64,000 nt of DNA from Anaeromyxobacter dehalogenans 2CP-1 (GTDB lineage Bacteria > Myxococcota > Myxococcia > Myxococcales > Anaeromyxobacteraceae), in NCBI RefSeq assembly GCF_000022145.1, contig NC_011891.1, positions 4,694,501 through 4,758,500 of the forward strand, read 5' to 3'. A program made the translations under genes and the position numbers. Under the pieces are notes generated by a model. The model was not told the DNA's origin. It did no database searches and worked only from the letters and a program-made list of their open reading frames with translations. Of the stretch, positions 41,075 to 52,314 are shown in pieces; within the stretch, counting starts at the first letter, position 1, and each line of letters opens with the position of its first letter.

Positions 41075-41608
41075 TCACCCGGCGCGCCGCGGCACCACCG
41101 CGCCGGTCCGCCGCGCGTACGCCTCCCACTCGGCGCCGAACCGCGCCGCCGCCTCGCGCTCCTCGGCGGCGGCGGCGAAGCCGTAGCTCGCGAGCGCGAG
41201 CGCGGTCGAGAGGAGCCCGGCGCTCGAGGGCAGGCGCAGGAGGTGGCCCGCGAGCACCATGCCGAGCCCGAGGTAGAGCGGGTGGCGGATGCGCGCGTAC
41301 GGGCCACCGGTCGCGAGCCGTCCCCGGCCCGCCTCCAGCCGGGCGCGGAACGAGGCGCCCGCCAGGAGGAAGCCGGCGACCAGCAGCAGGCCGCCCGGGA
41401 TGCGGCCGGCCAGCCCGGGATCGACGGCGCCCGCGCGCGGGACGAACCCGTACGCGGCCGCGAGGGTCACGGCGATCGCCGCGACGTACACCAGGATGCC
41501 CGCGAAGTCGCGCCCGCGCTCCGGCAGCGTGAAGCGGTACCCGAGCACGATCGCGAGCGCGGAGATCGCGAGGGTGAGGCTGCCTTCGGCGGAGAGCAGG
41601 GATTCCAC
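41075..41608 (-). CDS. Isoprenylcysteine carboxyl methyltransferase-like membrane protein
   Basis: A 177-residue integral membrane protein with about five hydrophobic segments and the ICMT/PEMT motif GPYARIRHPLYLGLG and C-terminal EEREAAARFGAEWEAYARR, which in this family bind SAM and the lipid substrate. It follows cusA by 14 bases on the same strand, so it is likely in the metal-efflux operon. Bacterial members often sit in heavy-metal resistance clusters; their role there is unknown. GTG start 41608 with GGAG upstream. Confidence 0.78.
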   Translation of the reverse strand: MESLLSAEGSLTLAISALAIVLGYRFTLPERGRDFAGILVYVAAIAVTLAAAYGFVPRAGAVDPGLAGRIPGGLLLVAGFLLAGASFRARLEAGRGRLATGGPYARIRHPLYLGLGMVLAGHLLRLPSSAGLLSTALALASYGFAAAAEEREAAARFGAEWEAYARRTGAVVPRRAG

Positions 41609-41622
41609 GCGGGCTCCGGGCG

Positions 41623-44600
41623 TCAGGCGGCGATGGCCGGGGTGGCCTGGCCGTCCTTCACGACCTCCTTGCGCTTCCAGAGGAAGTAGATGGCCGGGTA
41701 CACGGTCAGCTCGAGGAGGAAGCTCGTCACCAGGCCGCCCACCATGGGCGCGGCGATGCGCTTCATGAGATCCGCGCCGGTGCCGGTGGACCACATGATC
41801 GGCAGCAGGCCCAGCATGGCGGCGAGCACGGTCATCGCCTTCGGCCGCACGCGCTTCACCGCGCCGTGGATGATCGCCTCCACCAGGTCGCTCTCGGTGC
41901 GCAGCAGCCCCTTCTTCTTGTACTCGTCGTGGGAGAGGTCGAGGAACAGCAGCATGAACACCCCGGTCTCGGCGTCGAGCCCCATCAGCGCGATGAGCCC
42001 GACCCAGACCGCGATCGACATGTTGTAGTCGAGCATCCACAGCAGCCAGATGGCGCCGATGGCGGAGAACGGCACCGCCAGCATGATGACGCTCGCCTTG
42101 AAGGTGCTCCGGGTGTTCATGTAGAGCAGGAAGAAGATGAGCACGAGCGTGATGGGCAGGATGAGCTTCAGCCGCTCGTTCACGCGCATCATGTTCTCGT
42201 ACTGGCCGCTCCAGGTCATCGAGTAGCCGGTGGGCGTCTTCACGCCCGCCGCGACCGCCTTCTTCGCCTGCTCGACGTAGCTGCCCACGTCCACCTTCGA
42301 GGTGTCGAAGTCCACGAAGACGTAGCCGGCCAGCAGGCCGTTCTCGTCGCGGATCATCGACGGGCCCTGCGCCAGCTCCACGTCGGCGATCTCCTCCATG
42401 GGGATCTGGCCCTGGCCGCCCGGCAGCGGCAGCAGCACGCGCCGGAGCGACTGGAGGTCCTCGCGGTAGTCGCGCGCGTAGCGGACGTTGATGCCGTAGC
42501 GCTCGCGGCCCATCACGGTGGTGGACTGGTTGTCGCCGCCCACCGCGGTCATGACCATCATGTTCGCGGCGTCCACGCTCAGCCCGTAGCGGGCGAGCTG
42601 GTCGCGCTTCAGCACGAAGTCGAGGAAGTAGCCGCCGGCCACGCGCTCCGCGTAGACGCTGCGGGTGCCGGGCACCTTGGTGAGCGCCGCCTCGACGTCG
42701 AGGCCGATCTTCTCGATCTCGGCCAGGTCCGCGCCCGCCACCTTGATGCCGATGGGCGTGCGGATGCCGGTCGAGAGCATGTCGTTGCGCCCCTTGATCG
42801 GCATGGTCCAGGCGTTCGAGATGCCGGGGAGCTGCAGCGCCTGGTCCATCTCGTGCTCGAGCTCCTCGTACGAGATCCGGTCGCGCCAGAACGGGCGCAG
42901 GCCCGCCTTCAGCCACTCCGGCGCCCAGGACGAGTACCAGCGCGGGTGCTCGCGCCACTCGCGCTCCGGCTTCAGGATGATGGTCGTCTCCATCATGGTG
43001 AACGGCGCCGGGTCGGTGGAGGTGTTGGCGCGGCCCGCCTTCCCGAAGACGCGCTCCACCTCGGGGAAGGTCTTCAGGATCTTGTCCTGCACCTGCAGCG
43101 CCTTCTGCGCCTCGGCCACCGACATGCCCGGCTCGACCGCGCTCGGCATGTAGAGGATCGTCCCCTCGCGCAGCGGCGGCATGTACTCCGAGCCGAGGTG
43201 CCGGAACACCGGGATGGTGGTGAGCACGAGCAGCGCGCTCACCGCGATGGTGGCCTTGGCGTGGCGGACCACGAAGCGGCAGGGGCGCTCGTACAGGTGG
43301 TGCAGGACGCGCGAGATGGGGTGGCCTTCCTCCGAGTAGTACCTGCCCACCAGCACGCGGGTGGCGATCGCCGAGGCGAAGCGGGGCCGGAAGGTGTACG
43401 GCTCGATGCGCGCGAACAGCATGCGCATGGCCGGGTCGAGCGTGATCGCGAGCAGCGCCGCGATCGCCATGGCGAGGTTCTTCGAGTACGCGAGCGGCCG
43501 GAACAGCCGTCCCTCTTGATCCACCAGGGTGAACACCGGCATGAACGCGACCGCGATGACGAGCAGCGAGAAGAACACCCCCGGCCCGACCTCGAGGAGC
43601 GCCTCGAGGCGGACCTCGTGGAAGTCGCCCTTCTTCCCGTCCTGTATCCAGTGGTGGATCTTGTTGTAGGCGTTCTCGACCTCGACGATGGCGCCGTCCA
43701 CCAGCACGCCGATCGAGATCGCGATCCCGGAGAGCGACATCAGGTTCGCGTTCAGGCCCATCAGGTACATGGGGATGAACGAGAGCGCGACCGACACCGG
43801 GATGGTGACGATGGGGATGATCGCCGACGGGATGTGCCACAGGAAGATGAGGATGATGATCGAGACGATGATCACCTCCTCGATCACCTTGTGCGTCACC
43901 GTCTCGATGGCGTGGTCGATGAGCTCGGACCGATCGTAGGTGGTGACCACCTCGACGCCCTTCGGCAGCGACGGCTTCACCTCCTCGAGCTTGGCCTTCA
44001 CGCGGTGGATCACGTTGAGGGCGTTCTCGCCGTGGCGCATCACCACGATGCCGCCCACCACGTCGCCCTCGCCGTCGAGGTCGGCCACCCCGCGTCGCAT
44101 CTCCGGGCCGAGCGCCACCGTGGCCACGTCCTTCACCAGGACCGGCGTGCCGCCCTCCGCCTTGAGCACGATGTTCTCGAGGTCCGCGATGGTCTTCACG
44201 TAGCCGCGGCCGCGAACCATGTACTCCCGGCCCGCCAGCTCCACCAGGCGGCCGCCCACGTCGTTGTTGCCGGCGCGGACCGCCTGCACCACCGCGTCGA
44301 GCGGCAGCTTGTAGGCGGCGAGCGCGTTCGGGTTGACGGTCACCTGGTACTGCCGGACCTGGCCGCCCACCGTGGCGACCTCCGACACGCCCGGCACGCT
44401 CTGGACGGAGTAGCGCAGGAACCAGTCCTGGTAGGAGCGGAGCTCGTCCGACGAGTGCTGCCCGGAGCGGTCCACAAGCGCGTACTGGAAGATCCAGCCG
44501 ACGCCGGTCGCGTCCGGGCCGAGCTCGGTCTTCACGCCGGCCGGGAGCTGCGGCTGGATCTTGGAGAGGTACTCGAGCACGCGGGTGCGCGCCCAGTAGA

Positions 44601-44904
44601 GGTCGGTCCCGTCCTCGAAGATGACGTAGACGTAGCTGAAGCCGAAGTCGGAGAAGCCGCGGATCGCCTTCACCTTCGGCGCGCCGAGCAGCGCCGTGGT
44701 GATCGGATACGTGACCTGGTCCTCGATGATGTCCGGGCTGCGATCCCACTGCGAGTAGACGATGACCTGGGTGTCGGACTGGTCCGGCAGCGCGTCGAGC
44801 GGGATGTTCCGCATCGTCCACCACGCGCCGACCAGCGCCACCACCGTGGCCGCGATGACCAGGTACTTGTTGTGCGCGGAGAAGCGGATGATGGCCTTGA
44901 TCAT
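41623..44904 (-). CDS. cusA: CusA/CzcA-type heavy-metal RND efflux pump
   Basis: A 1093-residue inner-membrane RND transporter of the HAE/CusA metal branch. It has two groups of membrane helices around two large periplasmic loops, the N-terminal MIKAIIRFSAHNKYLV, DALPDQSDTQVIVY and the conserved DGAIVEVENA charged helix of RND pumps (TM4), with the C-terminal RIAAPMVGGLVTSF. The sequence around SLPKGVEVVTTYDRSELI is CusA-like, so Cu(I)/Ag(I) export is likely but zinc/cobalt/cadmium (CzcA) cannot be excluded. Its ATG is 3 bases after the cusB stop. Confidence 0.9.
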   Translation of the reverse strand: MIKAIIRFSAHNKYLVIAATVVALVGAWWTMRNIPLDALPDQSDTQVIVYSQWDRSPDIIEDQVTYPITTALLGAPKVKAIRGFSDFGFSYVYVIFEDGTDLYWARTRVLEYLSKIQPQLPAGVKTELGPDATGVGWIFQYALVDRSGQHSSDELRSYQDWFLRYSVQSVPGVSEVATVGGQVRQYQVTVNPNALAAYKLPLDAVVQAVRAGNNDVGGRLVELAGREYMVRGRGYVKTIADLENIVLKAEGGTPVLVKDVATVALGPEMRRGVADLDGEGDVVGGIVVMRHGENALNVIHRVKAKLEEVKPSLPKGVEVVTTYDRSELIDHAIETVTHKVIEEVIIVSIIILIFLWHIPSAIIPIVTIPVSVALSFIPMYLMGLNANLMSLSGIAISIGVLVDGAIVEVENAYNKIHHWIQDGKKGDFHEVRLEALLEVGPGVFFSLLVIAVAFMPVFTLVDQEGRLFRPLAYSKNLAMAIAALLAITLDPAMRMLFARIEPYTFRPRFASAIATRVLVGRYYSEEGHPISRVLHHLYERPCRFVVRHAKATIAVSALLVLTTIPVFRHLGSEYMPPLREGTILYMPSAVEPGMSVAEAQKALQVQDKILKTFPEVERVFGKAGRANTSTDPAPFTMMETTIILKPEREWREHPRWYSSWAPEWLKAGLRPFWRDRISYEELEHEMDQALQLPGISNAWTMPIKGRNDMLSTGIRTPIGIKVAGADLAEIEKIGLDVEAALTKVPGTRSVYAERVAGGYFLDFVLKRDQLARYGLSVDAANMMVMTAVGGDNQSTTVMGRERYGINVRYARDYREDLQSLRRVLLPLPGGQGQIPMEEIADVELAQGPSMIRDENGLLAGYVFVDFDTSKVDVGSYVEQAKKAVAAGVKTPTGYSMTWSGQYENMMRVNERLKLILPITLVLIFFLLYMNTRSTFKASVIMLAVPFSAIGAIWLLWMLDYNMSIAVWVGLIALMGLDAETGVFMLLFLDLSHDEYKKKGLLRTESDLVEAIIHGAVKRVRPKAMTVLAAMLGLLPIMWSTGTGADLMKRIAAPMVGGLVTSFLLELTVYPAIYFLWKRKEVVKDGQATPAIAA

Positions 44905-44907
44905 GGC

Positions 44908-46488
44908 TCACCGCCCTCCGTGCCCGGCGTGGCCGGAGCCCGCGTCCGCGCCGCCGGACGCCTCGCCCGCGTCGGCCGGCGTCGCCGCGGCCGGAGCCGC
45001 CGGCGCGCCGCCGGACGGCGCGAGCGCCGCGAGCGAGGCGCGCAGCCGCGACTCCGAGTCGATGAGGAAGTTCGCCCGGGTGACGACCTTCTCGCCCTCG
45101 TGCAGGCCCGAGACGACCTCGACGGAGGTGCCGTCGGACGCGCCGAGCTTCACCGCGCGCGGCTGGAACTTGCCCTCCTCGAGCGCCACGAACACCACGC
45201 TCTGCGTGCCCGAGTCGATCACCGCGTCGGCCGGCACGCGCAGCCCCTCGCGCGCCTTCCCCTGCAGGACCACCTCGCCGAACATCTCCGGCCTGAGCTC
45301 GCCGGTCGGGTTCGCGAACGCGAGCCGGACCTTCACCGTGCGCGTCTTGGGATCGAGCAGCGGGTCGATGAACGACACCTTCCCCTTGAACGGGTGGTCG
45401 GGGAAGGCGTTCAGCGTGAGCGTGGCCGGCAGGCCGACCTTCACGTTGCGCAGCTCGCGCTCGTACACGTCGGCGAGCACCCAGACCTGGGAGAGGTCCA
45501 CGATCTCGTAGGGCATGGCCCCCGCGTCGAGCTTCATCCCCTCGACCACGTCCTTCTTCACCACCACGCCGGAGATGGGCGAGTAGAAGGTGAGCGTCTT
45601 CGTCGGCTTGCCGGTCTCCTCCAGCTTGCGGATCTCCGCCGGCGGGACGTCCCAGAGCTGCAGCTTGCGCCGCGCGGCCTCGACGAGCGCGTCGCCCCCG
45701 ACCGCGCGCGAGCCCGCCAGCGTGCCCTGCGTGCGCAGCGCGAGCAGGAGCTCCTCCTGCGCGGCGAGCAGGTCCGGGCTGTAGACCGAGAACAGCGGCT
45801 CGCCGCGCTTCACCGGCTTGCCCACGAAGTCCACGTAGATGCGCTCCACGTAGACCGGGATCTTCACGTTCACGTGCTTCACGCGCGTCTCGTCCACCGC
45901 GACCCGGCCGACCGTGCGCCAGGCGCCGCCGACGGTGCCGCGCGTCACCTGGGCCGTCCGGAGCCCGATGAGCTGCTGCCGCGAGGGGTCGATGCTCACC
46001 GTGGCGAGCCCCTCGACGTCGGCCGCGCCCCCGCCCCCGTCCACCTTCACCAGCTTCATGCCGCAGATCGGGCAGTCGCCGGGGTGGTCCTGCACGACGC
46101 TCGGGTGCATCGGGCACTGGTACTGCGGCTTCTGCTCGCCGGCGCCGGCCCTGGCGCCACCCCCCGCGGCCGCGCCGCTCCCGGCGCCGCCCTGCGGCTG
46201 CTCCATGGGGACGAGCTTCATGCCGCAGAGCGGGCAGTCGCCCGGGTGGTCCTGCACGATCGTCGGGTGCATCGGGCAGGTGTAGAGCTGCTTCGTCTCG
46301 GCGTGGGCCGCGTGGTCGTGGCCGTCGCCGCCGGCGGCCTCGCCGCCGCGCAGGCCGCCGGCGAGCAGCACCGCGCCGCCGCCCAGGGCCGCGCCCGCGA
46401 GCAGCGCCGCGAGCAGGATCAGCGCCCCGCGCGCGCGCCGCGGCGGGGGGGGGACGTTCGGGTTCGTCGGGATCGTCGCGTCGCTCAC
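44908..46488 (-). CDS. cusB: CusB/CzcB-type periplasmic adaptor with two heavy-metal-binding domains
   Basis: A 526-residue membrane-fusion protein. After an N-terminal helix (about 20-48) and a His-rich spacer come two copies of the heavy-metal-binding domain, TCPMHPTIVQDHPGDCPLCGM at 70-90 and QCPMHPSVVQDHPGDCPICG at 124-143, joined by a Gly/Ala-rich linker. The rest (about 155-526) has the barrel-sandwich/beta-barrel adaptor layout, with VERIYVDFVGKPVKRGEPL and the usual long alpha hairpin. It links the CusA pump to the outer-membrane channel. GTG start 46488 overlaps the cusC stop (GTGA). Two metal domains instead of the usual one are noteworthy. Confidence 0.88.
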   Translation of the reverse strand: MSDATIPTNPNVPPPPRRARGALILLAALLAGAALGGGAVLLAGGLRGGEAAGGDGHDHAAHAETKQLYTCPMHPTIVQDHPGDCPLCGMKLVPMEQPQGGAGSGAAAGGGARAGAGEQKPQYQCPMHPSVVQDHPGDCPICGMKLVKVDGGGGAADVEGLATVSIDPSRQQLIGLRTAQVTRGTVGGAWRTVGRVAVDETRVKHVNVKIPVYVERIYVDFVGKPVKRGEPLFSVYSPDLLAAQEELLLALRTQGTLAGSRAVGGDALVEAARRKLQLWDVPPAEIRKLEETGKPTKTLTFYSPISGVVVKKDVVEGMKLDAGAMPYEIVDLSQVWVLADVYERELRNVKVGLPATLTLNAFPDHPFKGKVSFIDPLLDPKTRTVKVRLAFANPTGELRPEMFGEVVLQGKAREGLRVPADAVIDSGTQSVVFVALEEGKFQPRAVKLGASDGTSVEVVSGLHEGEKVVTRANFLIDSESRLRASLAALAPSGGAPAAPAAATPADAGEASGGADAGSGHAGHGGR

Positions 46489-47906
46489 ATGCCACCGCCC
46501 ATCGAGGAAGAGGAAGAAGAGGAGGAGCCGCCGGTGGCCGCCGCCTGCGCGCCGCCGCCCGCCGCACGGGCCGGGGCGGCGGCGGAGGCCGCACCACCCG
46601 CGCCGGGCATGCCCCCGCCCGCGCCCGCGGCGCCGCCCGGGAGCGCCTCGTCGAGGCTGACCTCGCGCGCGGCGACCCACAGCCGCTGCGCCTCGGCCGC
46701 CACGCCGAGGAACCCCTCCTCGTCGGAGACCGTGCCGGCCAGCGCCTCGAGCACCGACGCGAACGGCACCCGGCCGGTGACGTACTGCGCGAGCGCGCTC
46801 TCCGCGGTCGCGCGCGACTGCACCAGGAGCCCGCCGCGGTAGAGCGCGAGCGTCTCGAGCGCGGCCGCCAGCGACTCCTCGCGCTGCAGCGCGCGGAGGC
46901 GCACCACCTGCGCGAACGCGTCCGCCGCGGCGACGCCGTTCTCGGCTCGGGCCGCGCTCATGGCCACCGCGCGCGACTGCTTGCGCCCCGAGAAGATCGG
47001 CAGCGGGACCGACAGTCCAACCTGCCACATCGGCTCGAGCGCGCCGCGCGGCATCAGGCCCGCGCTCAGGGTGACGTCCGGGAAGCGCTCGCGCCGCGCC
47101 AGCGCCGCCTCGCGATCCGCCTGCTGCGCCGCCGCCCGCGCCGAGGCCAGCTCCGGGCTGCGCGCCTCCGCGTCGGCGAGCGCCGCGTCGCGCTCCGGCA
47201 GCGCCGGGTCGGCGAGCGCCTCCAGGCTGGCGATGGTCTCGACGGGCTCGCCGGCGGGCTGGCCGCGCAGGCGGTTCACCACCGCCCGCCGGGCGCGCTC
47301 CTCCGCCTCGAGCGCGACGCGCCGCTGCCGCAGGCGCGTCCGCTCGAGCTGCGCGCGGAGCAGGTCGGTCTGGGCGCCCACGCCGGACTCGTAGCGGGAG
47401 CGGGCGGTGCCCTCCGACCGTGCCCAGAGCGCCTCCAGGCGCCCGAGGAGCGCCAGCCGGTCGCGGACCAGCACGAGGTCCACGTAGGCGCGGCGCATGT
47501 CCGCCTCGGCGCCGAGCCGCGCGCGGTCCAGCGACGCGATCGCCGCGCTCGCGCCGGCCGCCGCCGCCTCGGCCCGCAGCGCGCGCTTGCCCGGGAACGG
47601 GAACGTCTGCGCGAGGCCGATGGAGTAGTAGCTCGTCTCCATCTTGCCGACCTGGATCCCGCCGAAGCCGTCGTTCTGCAGGCCCAGCGACAGCACCGGA
47701 TCCGGCAGCGCGCCGGCCTGCGGGACGCGCTCGTGCTCGGCGCGGGCCATGGCGTGCGCGGAGCGGAGCTCGGGCCGCGCCTCGAGCGTCTCCGAGACGA
47801 GCCGGGCGAGCGCGGGATCGTCGTCGAGCGGGACGCGCCCCTCCGCGGCGGCGAGGGCCGGCGCGGCGGCGACGAGGAGCAGGATTGCGGGACGGAGTCG
47901 TCTCAT
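46485..47906 (-). CDS. cusC: CusC/TolC-type outer-membrane efflux protein
   Basis: A 473-residue outer-membrane factor with a signal peptide (ALAAAEG) and two tandem outer-membrane-efflux repeats of long amphipathic helices (AEHERVPQAGALPDPVLSLGLQNDGFGG; SPELASARAAAQQADREAALA), as in TolC/CusC. It opens the operon cusC-cusB-cusA. The C-terminus is unusual: Gly/Ala-rich, then a run of eight serines (residues about 461-468) and MGGGM, where metals could bind Met residues. ATG 47906 with a weak ribosome-binding site. Confidence 0.85.
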   Translation of the reverse strand: MRRLRPAILLLVAAAPALAAAEGRVPLDDDPALARLVSETLEARPELRSAHAMARAEHERVPQAGALPDPVLSLGLQNDGFGGIQVGKMETSYYSIGLAQTFPFPGKRALRAEAAAAGASAAIASLDRARLGAEADMRRAYVDLVLVRDRLALLGRLEALWARSEGTARSRYESGVGAQTDLLRAQLERTRLRQRRVALEAEERARRAVVNRLRGQPAGEPVETIASLEALADPALPERDAALADAEARSPELASARAAAQQADREAALARRERFPDVTLSAGLMPRGALEPMWQVGLSVPLPIFSGRKQSRAVAMSAARAENGVAAADAFAQVVRLRALQREESLAAALETLALYRGGLLVQSRATAESALAQYVTGRVPFASVLEALAGTVSDEEGFLGVAAEAQRLWVAAREVSLDEALPGGAAGAGGGMPGAGGAASAAAPARAAGGGAQAAATGGSSSSSSSSMGGGM

Positions 47907-48010
47907 ACGGGGCAGCTTCCCAAGCAGCGCGCGTGCCACCCGGCGGCGGCCGGACCGCAGCCTGATCAGGCGGAAATCCGTCGGTTTTCGACGGACCGGC
48001 CCCACCGCAC

Positions 48011-48050
48011 GCGTCACGTGTAACCCGCGGCGTCACGCATTCCCGCGTGA
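48011..48050. promoter_or_regulatory. Repeated GCGTCACG motifs between cusC and rsmB
   Basis: GCGTCACG occurs at 48011-48018 and 48030-48037 (19 bases apart, same orientation), and the second copy forms an inverted repeat TCACGC-N6-GCGTGA with bases 48045-48050. This lies in the divergent region of the efflux operon and the rRNA methyltransferase gene, so it may be an operator for a metal-responsive regulator. No regulator gene is next to it. TATCCT at 48084-48089 is a possible -10 of the right-hand gene. Confidence 0.35.
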
Positions 48051-49419: not shown

Positions 49420-49833
49420 CTACCTGGCCTTCGCCGCGCGCGCTGCCAGCAGCTTCGCGCCCCCATGCGCCTCGAGCGCGACCTCCAGCGCCCGCGCGTA
49501 GTCGGGCCGCGCGCCCTCGAGCCGCGCGCGCCCTCGCTCGGTCAGCACCGTGTACACGCCGCGCTTGTCGTCCGGGCACAGGTCGCGGACGGTGAGGCCG
49601 CCGCGCTCCAGGCGCTCGACCATCCGCGAGACCGAGCTCTGGTTCAGGCGCAGCTGGCCGGCCAGCTCCTGCATGCGCAGCTCGGAGTCCGGAGCCCGCG
49701 CCAGCAGCTCCAGCGCGCGGAACTCCGTCAGCCCGAGCCCGTGCCGGGCTTGCAGCACCTTGCCCAGATCGGCCTCGACCTGGGCGACGAGCTGGACCAG
49801 CTCGAGCCACGCATCGCCTCGCCTCGACGTCAC
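49420..49833 (-). CDS. MarR family transcriptional regulator
   Basis: A 137-residue MarR protein. The winged helix is visible: LNQSSVSRMVERLERGGLTVRDLCPDDKRG (recognition helix and wing) after LTEFRALELLARAP; terminal helices form the dimer. GTG start 49833. It is downstream of the two SMR exporter genes on the same strand, and the inverted repeat TGCATG-CC-CATGCA lies in the gap before it (49878-49891), matching a second site before the SMR pair. It is therefore likely to be the repressor of that unit and of itself. Ligand unknown, presumably an exporter substrate. Confidence 0.9.
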   Translation of the reverse strand: MTSRRGDAWLELVQLVAQVEADLGKVLQARHGLGLTEFRALELLARAPDSELRMQELAGQLRLNQSSVSRMVERLERGGLTVRDLCPDDKRGVYTVLTERGRARLEGARPDYARALEVALEAHGGAKLLAARAAKAR

Positions 49834-49877: not shown

Positions 49878-49891
49878 TGCATGCCCATGCA
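49878..49891. promoter_or_regulatory. Putative MarR operator, site A
   Basis: TGCATG-CC-CATGCA is a perfect 6-2-6 inverted repeat 44 bases before the marR start. The flanking bases CATTGCTTG occur in reverse orientation next to it and again near the SMR promoter at 50749. It matches site C (50797-50812) in both sequence and 2-base spacing. Confidence 0.7.
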
Positions 49892-49922
49892 AGCAATGGG
49901 CAGCGGGGGTCGCGCCCGCCCG

Positions 49923-50312
49923 TCAGGCGCGCGCCCGGGGCGCTCCCGGCGCGGGCCGGGCGCCGTCGGCGAGCTTCAGCCAGACGACGCCGGCGATGAT
50001 GACCGCCAGCCAGAACGCCTGGACCGGCGTCAGCGACTGGTCGAGCAGGACGCTGCCCAGGATCGCGGCGCCCACCGAGCCGATGCCGGCCCACACCGCG
50101 TAGCCGATGCCCACGTCGATCGTGCGCAGGGCGACGCTCAGCGCGTACAGCGTCAGCAGGAAGAACACCCCGGCGGAGATGGACCAGCCGGGCACGGTGA
50201 ACGCCCGGCTGCCGGCGACGCTGAGGGCGTAGCCGATCTCGAAGGCCCCCGCGAGCAGCAGCATGATCCACGCCCGCCCACTGCCCCTGTTCGTCTCGTT
50301 CGTCGTCGTCAC
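49923..50312 (-). CDS. SMR-family efflux protein, first of a pair (YkkC/SugE-like)
   Basis: A 129-residue small multidrug resistance protein with four hydrophobic helices and the buried Glu of helix 1 (AGAFEIGYAL). The helix-2 to helix-3 stretch YALSVALRTIDVGIGYAVWAGIGSVG is the SMR core. It is longer than usual through a polar N-terminus and a Pro/Ala/Arg tail. GTG start with AGGAG 6 bases upstream. It probably forms a heterodimer with the protein encoded at 50374-50694. Confidence 0.85.
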   Translation of the reverse strand: MTTTNETNRGSGRAWIMLLLAGAFEIGYALSVAGSRAFTVPGWSISAGVFFLLTLYALSVALRTIDVGIGYAVWAGIGSVGAAILGSVLLDQSLTPVQAFWLAVIIAGVVWLKLADGARPAPGAPRARA

Positions 50313-50373
50313 GTCTCGCTCCTCGTCGATGATCAGGAGGGATGAAGGAATGAAGGGATGACGGCCCCTGCGG

Positions 50374-50694
50374 TCAGGCGGCGCCGCTGAGCCGCAGGCC
50401 CACCACGCCGCCGATGACCAGCAGGATCCCCAGGAGCTTCTGCCAGCCGAGTCGCTGCCCCAGGAACAGCGCGCCCAGCACGACGACCCCGACGCCCGCG
50501 ACCGACGTCCAGATCGCGTAGCCCACCCCGACGTCGAACGTCAGCAGCGCGAGGCTCAGGAAGAAGGTGCCGATCGCGCCGCTGACGAGCGTGGCGGCCG
50601 TCCACCACGGCCGGGTGAAGCCGCGCGCATTGCCTGCGGAGATGGCCACCGCGATCTCGAAGATCACGGCGACGCCGAGATGGATCCAGCTCAT
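50374..50694 (-). CDS. SMR-family efflux protein, second of a pair (YkkD/SugE-like)
   Basis: A 106-residue SMR protein with four helices, the Glu of helix 1 in VIFEIAVAIS and the conserved GVGYAIWTSVAGVGVVVLG core. It is the first gene transcribed of the leftward unit SMR-SMR-marR. Two adjacent, clearly different SMR genes usually encode heterodimers (as YkkCD, EbrAB). Transported compounds might be quaternary ammonium or guanidinium ions. ATG 50694 with AGGAGACC upstream. Confidence 0.85.
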   Translation of the reverse strand: MSWIHLGVAVIFEIAVAISAGNARGFTRPWWTAATLVSGAIGTFFLSLALLTFDVGVGYAIWTSVAGVGVVVLGALFLGQRLGWQKLLGILLVIGGVVGLRLSGAA

Positions 50695-50796
50695 GAAGGG
50701 GTCTCCTGGTCGGTTCGGTTCAGGGAGCGCCGTCGAACGGCGCGGTGTCATTGCTTGCGCATGCATGTAGTCGCGGCGACCGGAGCCGTCAAGTCC

Positions 50797-50812
50797 TTGC
50801 ATGTGCATGCAA
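50797..50812. promoter_or_regulatory. Putative MarR operator, site C, upstream of the SMR pair
   Basis: TTGCATG-TG-CATGCAA is a perfect 7-2-7 inverted repeat about 100 bases before the first SMR gene. A related CATTGCTTGCGCATGCATG lies between it and the gene at 50749-50767. Same half-site and spacing as site A before marR. Confidence 0.75.
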
Positions 50813-51195: not shown

Positions 51196-52314
51196 ATGGA
51201 CACCGCACGCCAACTCGCCGACGACCTCGCCCGGCTGCTCCGACATGAGCACGGCGCCATGGCCGACTTCCTCCTCGCCCTCGCCCGCTTCGACGAGCGG
51301 CAGCGCTGGCGCGAGCTGGGCCACACCTCGCTGTTCTACTTCCTCCACCGGGAGCTGAAGCTCTCCAAGGGCGCCGCCCAGAACCGGAAGACTGCGGCCG
51401 AGCTCATCCAGGCGTTCCCGGAGGTCGAGTCGGCCCTTCGCTCCGGTGAGCTGTGCCTTTCCACGGTCAACGAGCTGGCGAAGGTGCTCACCCCTGAGAA
51501 CCGCGCCGAGGTGCTGCCGCGGTTCTTCGGGCTCTCACGCCGGGACGCGGAGGCGGTCGCGGCGGCGCTCCGGCCGGCGGCGGTGGTGCCGGAGCGCGAG
51601 GTCGTCACCGTCATCCGCGCAACCGGGCCCGCGCCGCGGGCGCTCGCCCTCGTCGCGGCACCCTCCCCGGCCTCGGCGCCGCCCGGCCATTCGGTTCATC
51701 CGGATGAACCACCGCGGTCAGTGATTCACCCGGGTGAACCGCCTTCCCTCGTGACCACCGGGGGGTCGTCCACGCTGCCGGCGGCGCCACCGCCACCTCG
51801 CGAGACCGTGAAGCCGCTCGACGCGGAGGTCGCGCGCCTGCACCTCACCGTCTCGCGGGCGTTCCTCGACAAGCTCGAGGCCGCGACCGACGCGCTCGGG
51901 CACGCGTGCCCGGTCGGGAACGCGGCAGAGATCCTCGAGCGCGGGCTGGACCTCGTCCTCGCCCAGCGGGCGAGGCGTCACGGCCTGGTCGAGAAGCCGC
52001 GCAGGAGCCGCGGTCCGTCCCGAGCCGACCTCGTCCCGGCGGAGGTGAAGCGGGAGGTGTGGCGGCGCGCGGGTGGCCGCTGCGAGTGGACGCTCGAGTC
52101 CGGCGAGCGCTGCGGCTGCCGGCGCCGGCTCGAGTACGATCACGTCCAGCCCCTCGCGCTGGGGGGCGCCTCGACGATCGACAACGTCCGGCTCGTCTGC
52201 CGGCCGCACAACGTCCTCGCGGCACGGCACGTCTTCGGAGACGCGCTGATGGACCGCTACACCGCGCCTACAGGTCCGTGCTCCGCAGCACCGCGCCGTT
52301 CGCGGCGTTCGTGA
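51196..52314 (+). CDS. HNH endonuclease domain protein
   Basis: A 372-residue protein. The C-terminal HNH nuclease domain (about 290-345) has [13 protein letters not shown], then the [13 protein letters not shown] core with catalytic DH and [10 protein letters not shown], so both metal-binding and active residues are kept. The N-terminal half is helical (13E12-repeat/DUF222-like), and a Pro/Ala-rich linker (about 140-200) contains two similar units, VHPDEPPRS and IHPGEPPS, encoded by palindromes. Such proteins are repeated within some genomes and are considered selfish or mobile-element related. The last 47 bases overlap the convergent ilvD gene. Confidence 0.8.
51693..51740. repeat. Two palindromes inside the HNH gene linker
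   Basis: GGTTCATCCGGATGAACC (51693-51710) is a perfect 18-base palindrome. ATTCACCCGGGTGAAC (51724-51739) has a perfect 14-base core TTCACCCGGGTGAA. They are 12 bases apart, both in frame, and encode the two HPxEP units of the linker. They look like diverged copies of one element. Confidence 0.75.

Follow-up and report, generated by a model that had tools for sequence, protein, structure and literature searches.

Efflux operons in which a MarR-family protein controls an exporter and itself are an already known kind of system, and marRAB and emrRAB of Escherichia coli are autoregulated operons of this type. Paired SMR exporters are known as well, such as YkkCD of Bacillus subtilis, a pair of Gdx proteins under the control of a guanidine-I riboswitch. 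In the window analyzed here (the whole stretch of 64,000 nucleotides from Anaeromyxobacter dehalogenans 2CP-1), we found a unit of three genes, smr1, smr2, and marR, that was very probably acquired laterally and codes for a two-part drug or metabolite exporter together with a regulator that very probably represses both the exporter and itself. The operator family, the divergent class of SMR pair, and the tie of this pair to a biosynthetic cluster appear to be undescribed in the open-access papers that we searched, where we found no characterized MarR-family member with this operator and no paper that reports the operator sequences in bacteria or brings these genes together (an earlier description, in other papers or in a regulon database, is possible). 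The features of the unit, with positions in the window, are the following:

49420-49833, minus strand: marR, a MarR-family winged-helix regulator of 137 amino acids with a GTG start, recognized by Pfam
49878-49891, no strand: box 3, the putative marR operator TGCATGCCCATGCA (TGCATG and CATGCA around a CC center), 44 bp ahead of the marR start
49923-50312, minus strand: smr2, the second SMR subunit, 129 amino acids, Pfam PF00893 at 61.2 bits
50374-50694, minus strand: smr1, the first SMR subunit, 106 amino acids, with an ATG start and an AGGAG ribosome site, Pfam PF00893 at 60.8 bits
50752-50765, no strand: box 2, the proximal putative operator TGCTTGCGCATGCA (TGCTTG and CATGCA around CG), with one mismatch, overlapping the -10 region
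50764-50769, minus strand: putative -10-like hexamer of smr1, TACATG, a weak match that runs into box 2, assigned by comparison
50787-50792, minus strand: putative -35 of smr1, TTGACG, separated by 17 bases from the -10-like hexamer and assigned by comparison with relatives
50797-50812, no strand: box 1, the distal putative operator TTGCATGTGCATGCAA (TTGCATG and CATGCAA around TG), immediately upstream of the -35

The gene order smr1-smr2-marR, with all three genes on the minus strand, is as the initial annotation had described it. The MarR protein scores above the Pfam cut-offs for MarR_2 (44.9 bits versus 27) and MarR (39.9 versus 24.6), and the Multi_Drug_Res domain exceeds its Pfam cut-off in both SMR1 and SMR2, which also have the TM1 glutamate, the tyrosine switch, and the TM3 tryptophan of the SMR family. 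No NCBIfam equivalog model reaches its cut-off for the proteins of the unit; hence, subtype names taken from annotation are unsafe. Elsewhere in the window, the overlapping minus-strand frames at 41075-48017 look by eye like a heavy-metal RND efflux operon, with a TolC-like protein, an adaptor with metal-binding motifs, and a pump.

The initial annotation had proposed a matched pair of operators. Both palindromes are present, TTGCATGTGCATGCAA at 50797-50812 and TGCATGCCCATGCA at 49878-49891, but there are three boxes in all, a tandem pair plus a single one. The additional site, box 2, had not been called, and it is perfect in a congener (genome G002). Similarly, CATTGCTTG had been reported beside both palindromes and does have two copies, although the one on the minus strand lies at 49890-49898, one base off the position given, and the one on the plus strand (50749-50757) is the left half of box 2, the third site. 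We rejected CATTGCTTG as an independent element, because one copy is accounted for by box 2 and the other by an extension of box 3 at the level of the genus; the copy adjoining the marR box is kept within Anaeromyxobacter as TTGCTTG and falls outside the broader consensus.

To obtain relatives, the genomes of 84,980 species were scanned with the MarR protein alone, and 80 loci were fetched (56 to 86% identity) from Burkholderiales, Hyphomicrobiales (Rhizobiales), Halomonadaceae, Vibrionaceae, and Actinomycetota, 70 of which have both SMR genes. Since these loci were picked by protein and not by operator, the boxes in them are an independent test. With one mismatch at most, we found 139 boxes in the 418 kb of loci, and all but two of them (137) are located at cassette or marR promoters; six control palindromes gave 0, 15, 3, 8, 0, and 0 matches in the same 418 kb. 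At the level of sequence comparison we regard the sites and their near-exclusive tie to this gene set as established. The commonest layout is box, box, (dsbA), smr1, smr2, (deaminase), box, marR, with a divergent arrangement in Halomonadaceae, Vibrio, and actinomycetes, and the products annotated for the full cassette in plasmid records are a DsbA-family oxidoreductase, two SMR transporters, a nucleoside deaminase, and MarR. The positions of the boxes relative to the promoter and the genes are conserved among alpha-, beta-, and gammaproteobacteria and Actinomycetota. Two distant MarR matches (L006 and L007), with no SMR gene in their surroundings, were rejected as members. A few exact boxes were also seen in distant relatives in which the search for this SMR1 gave no match (genomes G027, G013, and G025; loci L108-L110).

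The smr1 promoter was recognized by comparison with relatives alone; a generic promoter scan of the window scored neither an smr1 promoter nor the -35. Among the 36 relatives that show two clean boxes in tandem, these are spaced 44 to 51 bp apart (start to start). A TTGACA or near variant directly follows box 1, with TTGAC found at that place in 34 of the 36 relatives listed, and in many relatives a -10 of the TATAAT or TAATAT type extends into box 2. At marR, the box is conserved in a distinct form, TTGCATGggCATaCATaTG (logo of 44 loci), and a marR -35 is visible in relatives and unrecognizable in the window. An alignment of the three Anaeromyxobacter genomes that carry the unit shows the boxes and the -35 to be invariant or nearly so, with diverged flanks. 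The placement of the boxes at promoters, which the comparison supports, is the layout that would be expected of a repressor blocking both promoters.

We consider it highly likely that the three genes make up a self-contained cassette for inducible efflux, in which MarR, acting on TGCATGNNCATGCA, would repress a heterodimeric SMR exporter of a small cation and also itself. In the proposed mechanism, SMR1 and SMR2 would assemble into an antiparallel, proton-coupled heterodimer exporting the cation, and a MarR dimer would bind TGCATGNNCATGCA. Boxes 1 and 2 would bracket the smr1 promoter, the former upstream of the -35 and the latter over the -10 and the start, while box 3 would cover the promoter of marR. 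With no ligand, MarR would block both the smr1 and the marR promoters, and it would be released by an inducer, which is probably the exported compound itself or one related to it. We infer binding and repression by MarR, assembly of the heterodimer, and proton coupling. The residues of the MarR recognition helix are strongly conserved among relatives. The suggestion of the initial annotation that one MarR repressor controls both the SMR pair and itself receives strong support from the comparison, through the conserved boxes and the opposite charge biases of the two subunits, and it stands as a sequence-based prediction.

Regarding the exporter, SMR1 of the window keeps E13, Y59, and W62, has V16 and G42, and lacks the GXG motif, while SMR2 keeps E13, Y59, W62, GXG, and K101 and has Y16 and T42. 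E13, Y59, and W62 are found in every aligned relative in both subunits, and W16 and S42 are missing from both subunits in every aligned relative. SMR1 has lost the GXG fulcrum both here and in its relatives from proteobacteria, and the actinobacterial relatives keep it; the mechanics of an SMR1 without it may therefore differ. An opposite bias in Arg/Lys charge between adjacent SMR genes is a published criterion for heterodimers of fixed topology (PMC9574504). Here, with approximate loop limits, the bias is -1 for SMR1 and +7 for SMR2, with family medians of -1 and +8 and a value of 0 for the Gdx-Clo control. These opposite biases suggest that SMR1 and SMR2 probably form a heterodimeric paired exporter.

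The genes found next to the cassette in some relatives point to what might be exported. On a plasmid of Vibrio sp. THAF191d (L096 1-5622; L101 7061-9190), the tandem boxes precede a single operon containing biosynthetic genes and the cassette, with the following products: an AMP-ligase, a carrier protein, an ectoine-synthase-like cupin, a fused acyl-CoA dehydrogenase/transglutaminase, DsbA, SMR1, SMR2, a deaminase, and an arylmalonate-decarboxylase-like protein. This operon looks like an uncharacterized natural-product cluster. On a plasmid of Streptomyces globosus, the cassette and marR adjoin a cluster homologous to that of Vibrio, and the cluster proteins compared between the two, with Pfam domains assigned, are 39 to 59% identical. 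The regions fetched from Burkholderia stagnalis and Streptomyces xanthii contain the core of the cluster but no SMR pair, and Anaeromyxobacter and most proteobacteria have the unit with no such cluster next to it. As a separate observation, the core of AMP-ligase, carrier, ectoine-synthase-like protein, acyl-CoA dehydrogenase, and transglutaminase is carried by Streptomyces and Burkholderia plasmids (L094, L102, and L103) with differing partners, either tryptophan-pathway-like genes or a pseudouridine-phosphate glycosidase and a HAD hydrolase.

The most uncertain part of our reading is the ligand and substrate of export, which, as these neighborhoods indirectly suggest, is probably a small cationic natural product or pathway intermediate and not guanidinium, and most carriers of the cassette, including Anaeromyxobacter, would, we infer, use it for protection. 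Tentatively, and with a good deal less than even confidence, we propose a more specific version, in which a distinct SMR subtype (V16/Y16, with asymmetric GXG) exports the cationic product of the pathway of the Vibrio and Streptomyces type, MarR is the receptor of this product, and nonproducers such as Anaeromyxobacter carry an acquired resistance.

The signal might instead be oxidative. Cys86 of MarR, next to the wing, is present in 83 of 85 aligned rows, and the exceptions are two unrelated distant matches. This invariance within the clade, together with the DsbA-like gene that is frequent in the operon, would suit a MarR that senses redox changes or electrophiles through Cys86, with the exporter and the DsbA-like protein forming a stress response. 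However, the motif CPxDKRG is common to the MarR of the unit and a solved MarR protein (PDB 3zpl), so that a redox role of Cys86 is possible but not implied, and the cysteine may be structural. The Anaeromyxobacter unit has no dsbA, and an SMR exporter would be an odd response to oxidants; we therefore judge this explanation unlikely.

The initial annotation had compared the pair with YkkCD and suggested that a protein regulator takes the place of a guanidine riboswitch. On such a reading, the pair would be a YkkCD- or Gdx-like exporter of guanidinium whose MarR senses guanidinium. The closest PDB structure to both subunits is indeed Gdx-Clo, SMR2 keeps GXG and K101, and paired Gdx exporters exist (PMC9574504). 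In Gdx-Clo, however, W16 and S42 together with W62 hold the glutamates, and mutation of W16 or S42 impairs transport (PMC9574504), and these two residues, which position the central glutamate in Gdx proteins, are found in neither subunit here (V/Y at 16 and G/T at 42). The same genome has a third SMR gene (G000:C1:4907048, locus L088) whose residues (W16, S42, and GIG) are those of a canonical Gdx, with no exact or one-mismatch box in its fetched neighborhood and no Rfam riboswitch nearby. This gene likely codes for the guanidinium exporter of the genome, which, along with the replacement of W16 and S42, makes it unlikely that the paired exporter has that function in the cell. An Rfam search of the window gave no guanidine riboswitch match, none of any class was found at 20 relatives of the unit, and guanidine-I riboswitches were not found in the genomes of 60 relatives; hence, these searches give no indication that MarR took over from a riboswitch. 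The neighbors of the cassette (DsbA, deaminase, and biosynthetic genes) are not guanidine enzymes either. Taken with the separate Gdx and the missing residues, this leaves the replacement of a riboswitch by a protein regulator unsupported, and guanidinium export by the pair very improbable.

Some MarR proteins are activators instead of repressors. Box 1 ends right ahead of the -35, a possible position for an activator, and MarR could activate from there, with boxes 2 and 3 as negative sites. We find this most unlikely, as two boxes in tandem, one of them covering the -10, and a further one at the promoter of the regulator itself are the usual layout of a repressor, and the -35 of the relatives is near consensus (TTGACA), which means that no activator is needed.

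Repression by MarR through TGCATGNNCATGCA, our preferred reading, is also consistent with the distribution of the site. The window has two exact matches to the pattern, versus none in 100 dinucleotide shuffles, and these are the only two in the whole genome of 5,029,329 bases, both in the smr1-smr2-marR unit; a reversed control pattern gave 0 matches in the genome. Outside the unit, the genome has only four one-mismatch sites plus many two-mismatch matches. Genome-wide there are 134 two-mismatch matches, and the reversed control is commoner, with 252; no single additional site is therefore believable on its own, and a wider regulon in the A. dehalogenans genome was rejected. That the boxes are chance palindromes in GC-rich DNA, for which this abundance of two-mismatch matches might speak, is refuted by the comparison and has a negligible likelihood, since exact matches within the genome are confined to the unit and the box positions are conserved across phyla.

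The unit is present in three of nine Anaeromyxobacter genomes, and the same three have the boxes at the unit. It is placed between rsmB and ilvD, which are adjacent in five other Anaeromyxobacter genomes (an empty site). In G002 the unit is alone between both genes, whereas the window has an HNH-type gene (51196-52314) between smr1 and ilvD that is absent there in G002 and present as a broken copy in G001; it is probably a separate, decaying insertion. The rsmB homolog of G007 (L121) has one in-frame TGA, possibly a sign of a pseudogene or a sequencing error. The Anaeromyxobacter sequences group in the MarR tree as a single, well-supported clade (100/99) inside the proteobacterial rows, with only moderate support for the deeper forks. 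From these comparisons, lateral acquisition seems established, and a proteobacterium is the most likely source.

The unit defines an operator, a promoter layout, and a regulator for a widespread class of paired SMR proteins, and, as the operator is invariant, the regulon can readily be located in further genomes. The default label for a regulated SMR pair is often multidrug or guanidine exporter, and the binding-site residues here support neither; a specific biosynthetic cluster is now a place to look for the substrate of the pair. Compared with known exporters, the pair shares the central glutamate, the tyrosine switch, and the tryptophan with the EmrE/Qac subtype, but both subunits are less similar to it than to Gdx-Clo, and the NCBIfam Qac/EmrE models all score far under their cut-offs. 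The homodimeric guanidinium exporters Gdx-Clo and SugE have E13, Y59, and W62 in common with the pair, but the pair has the W16 and S42 of their hydrogen-bond stack replaced, its SMR1 lacks GXG, and it shows a fixed opposite charge bias in place of their dual topology. YkkCD of B. subtilis is also encoded by two adjacent SMR genes and is likely an obligate heterodimer, as predicted here; the subunits of the unit, in contrast, have neither W16 nor S42, and their control is predicted to be by a protein, with no riboswitch. Finally, the unit resembles marRAB and emrRAB in its winged-helix regulator, in the putative palindromic operators at the promoters of this regulator and of the exporter, and in a predicted induction by a small molecule, and differs from them in that its predicted target is a paired SMR exporter with a tandem pair of boxes around the promoter.
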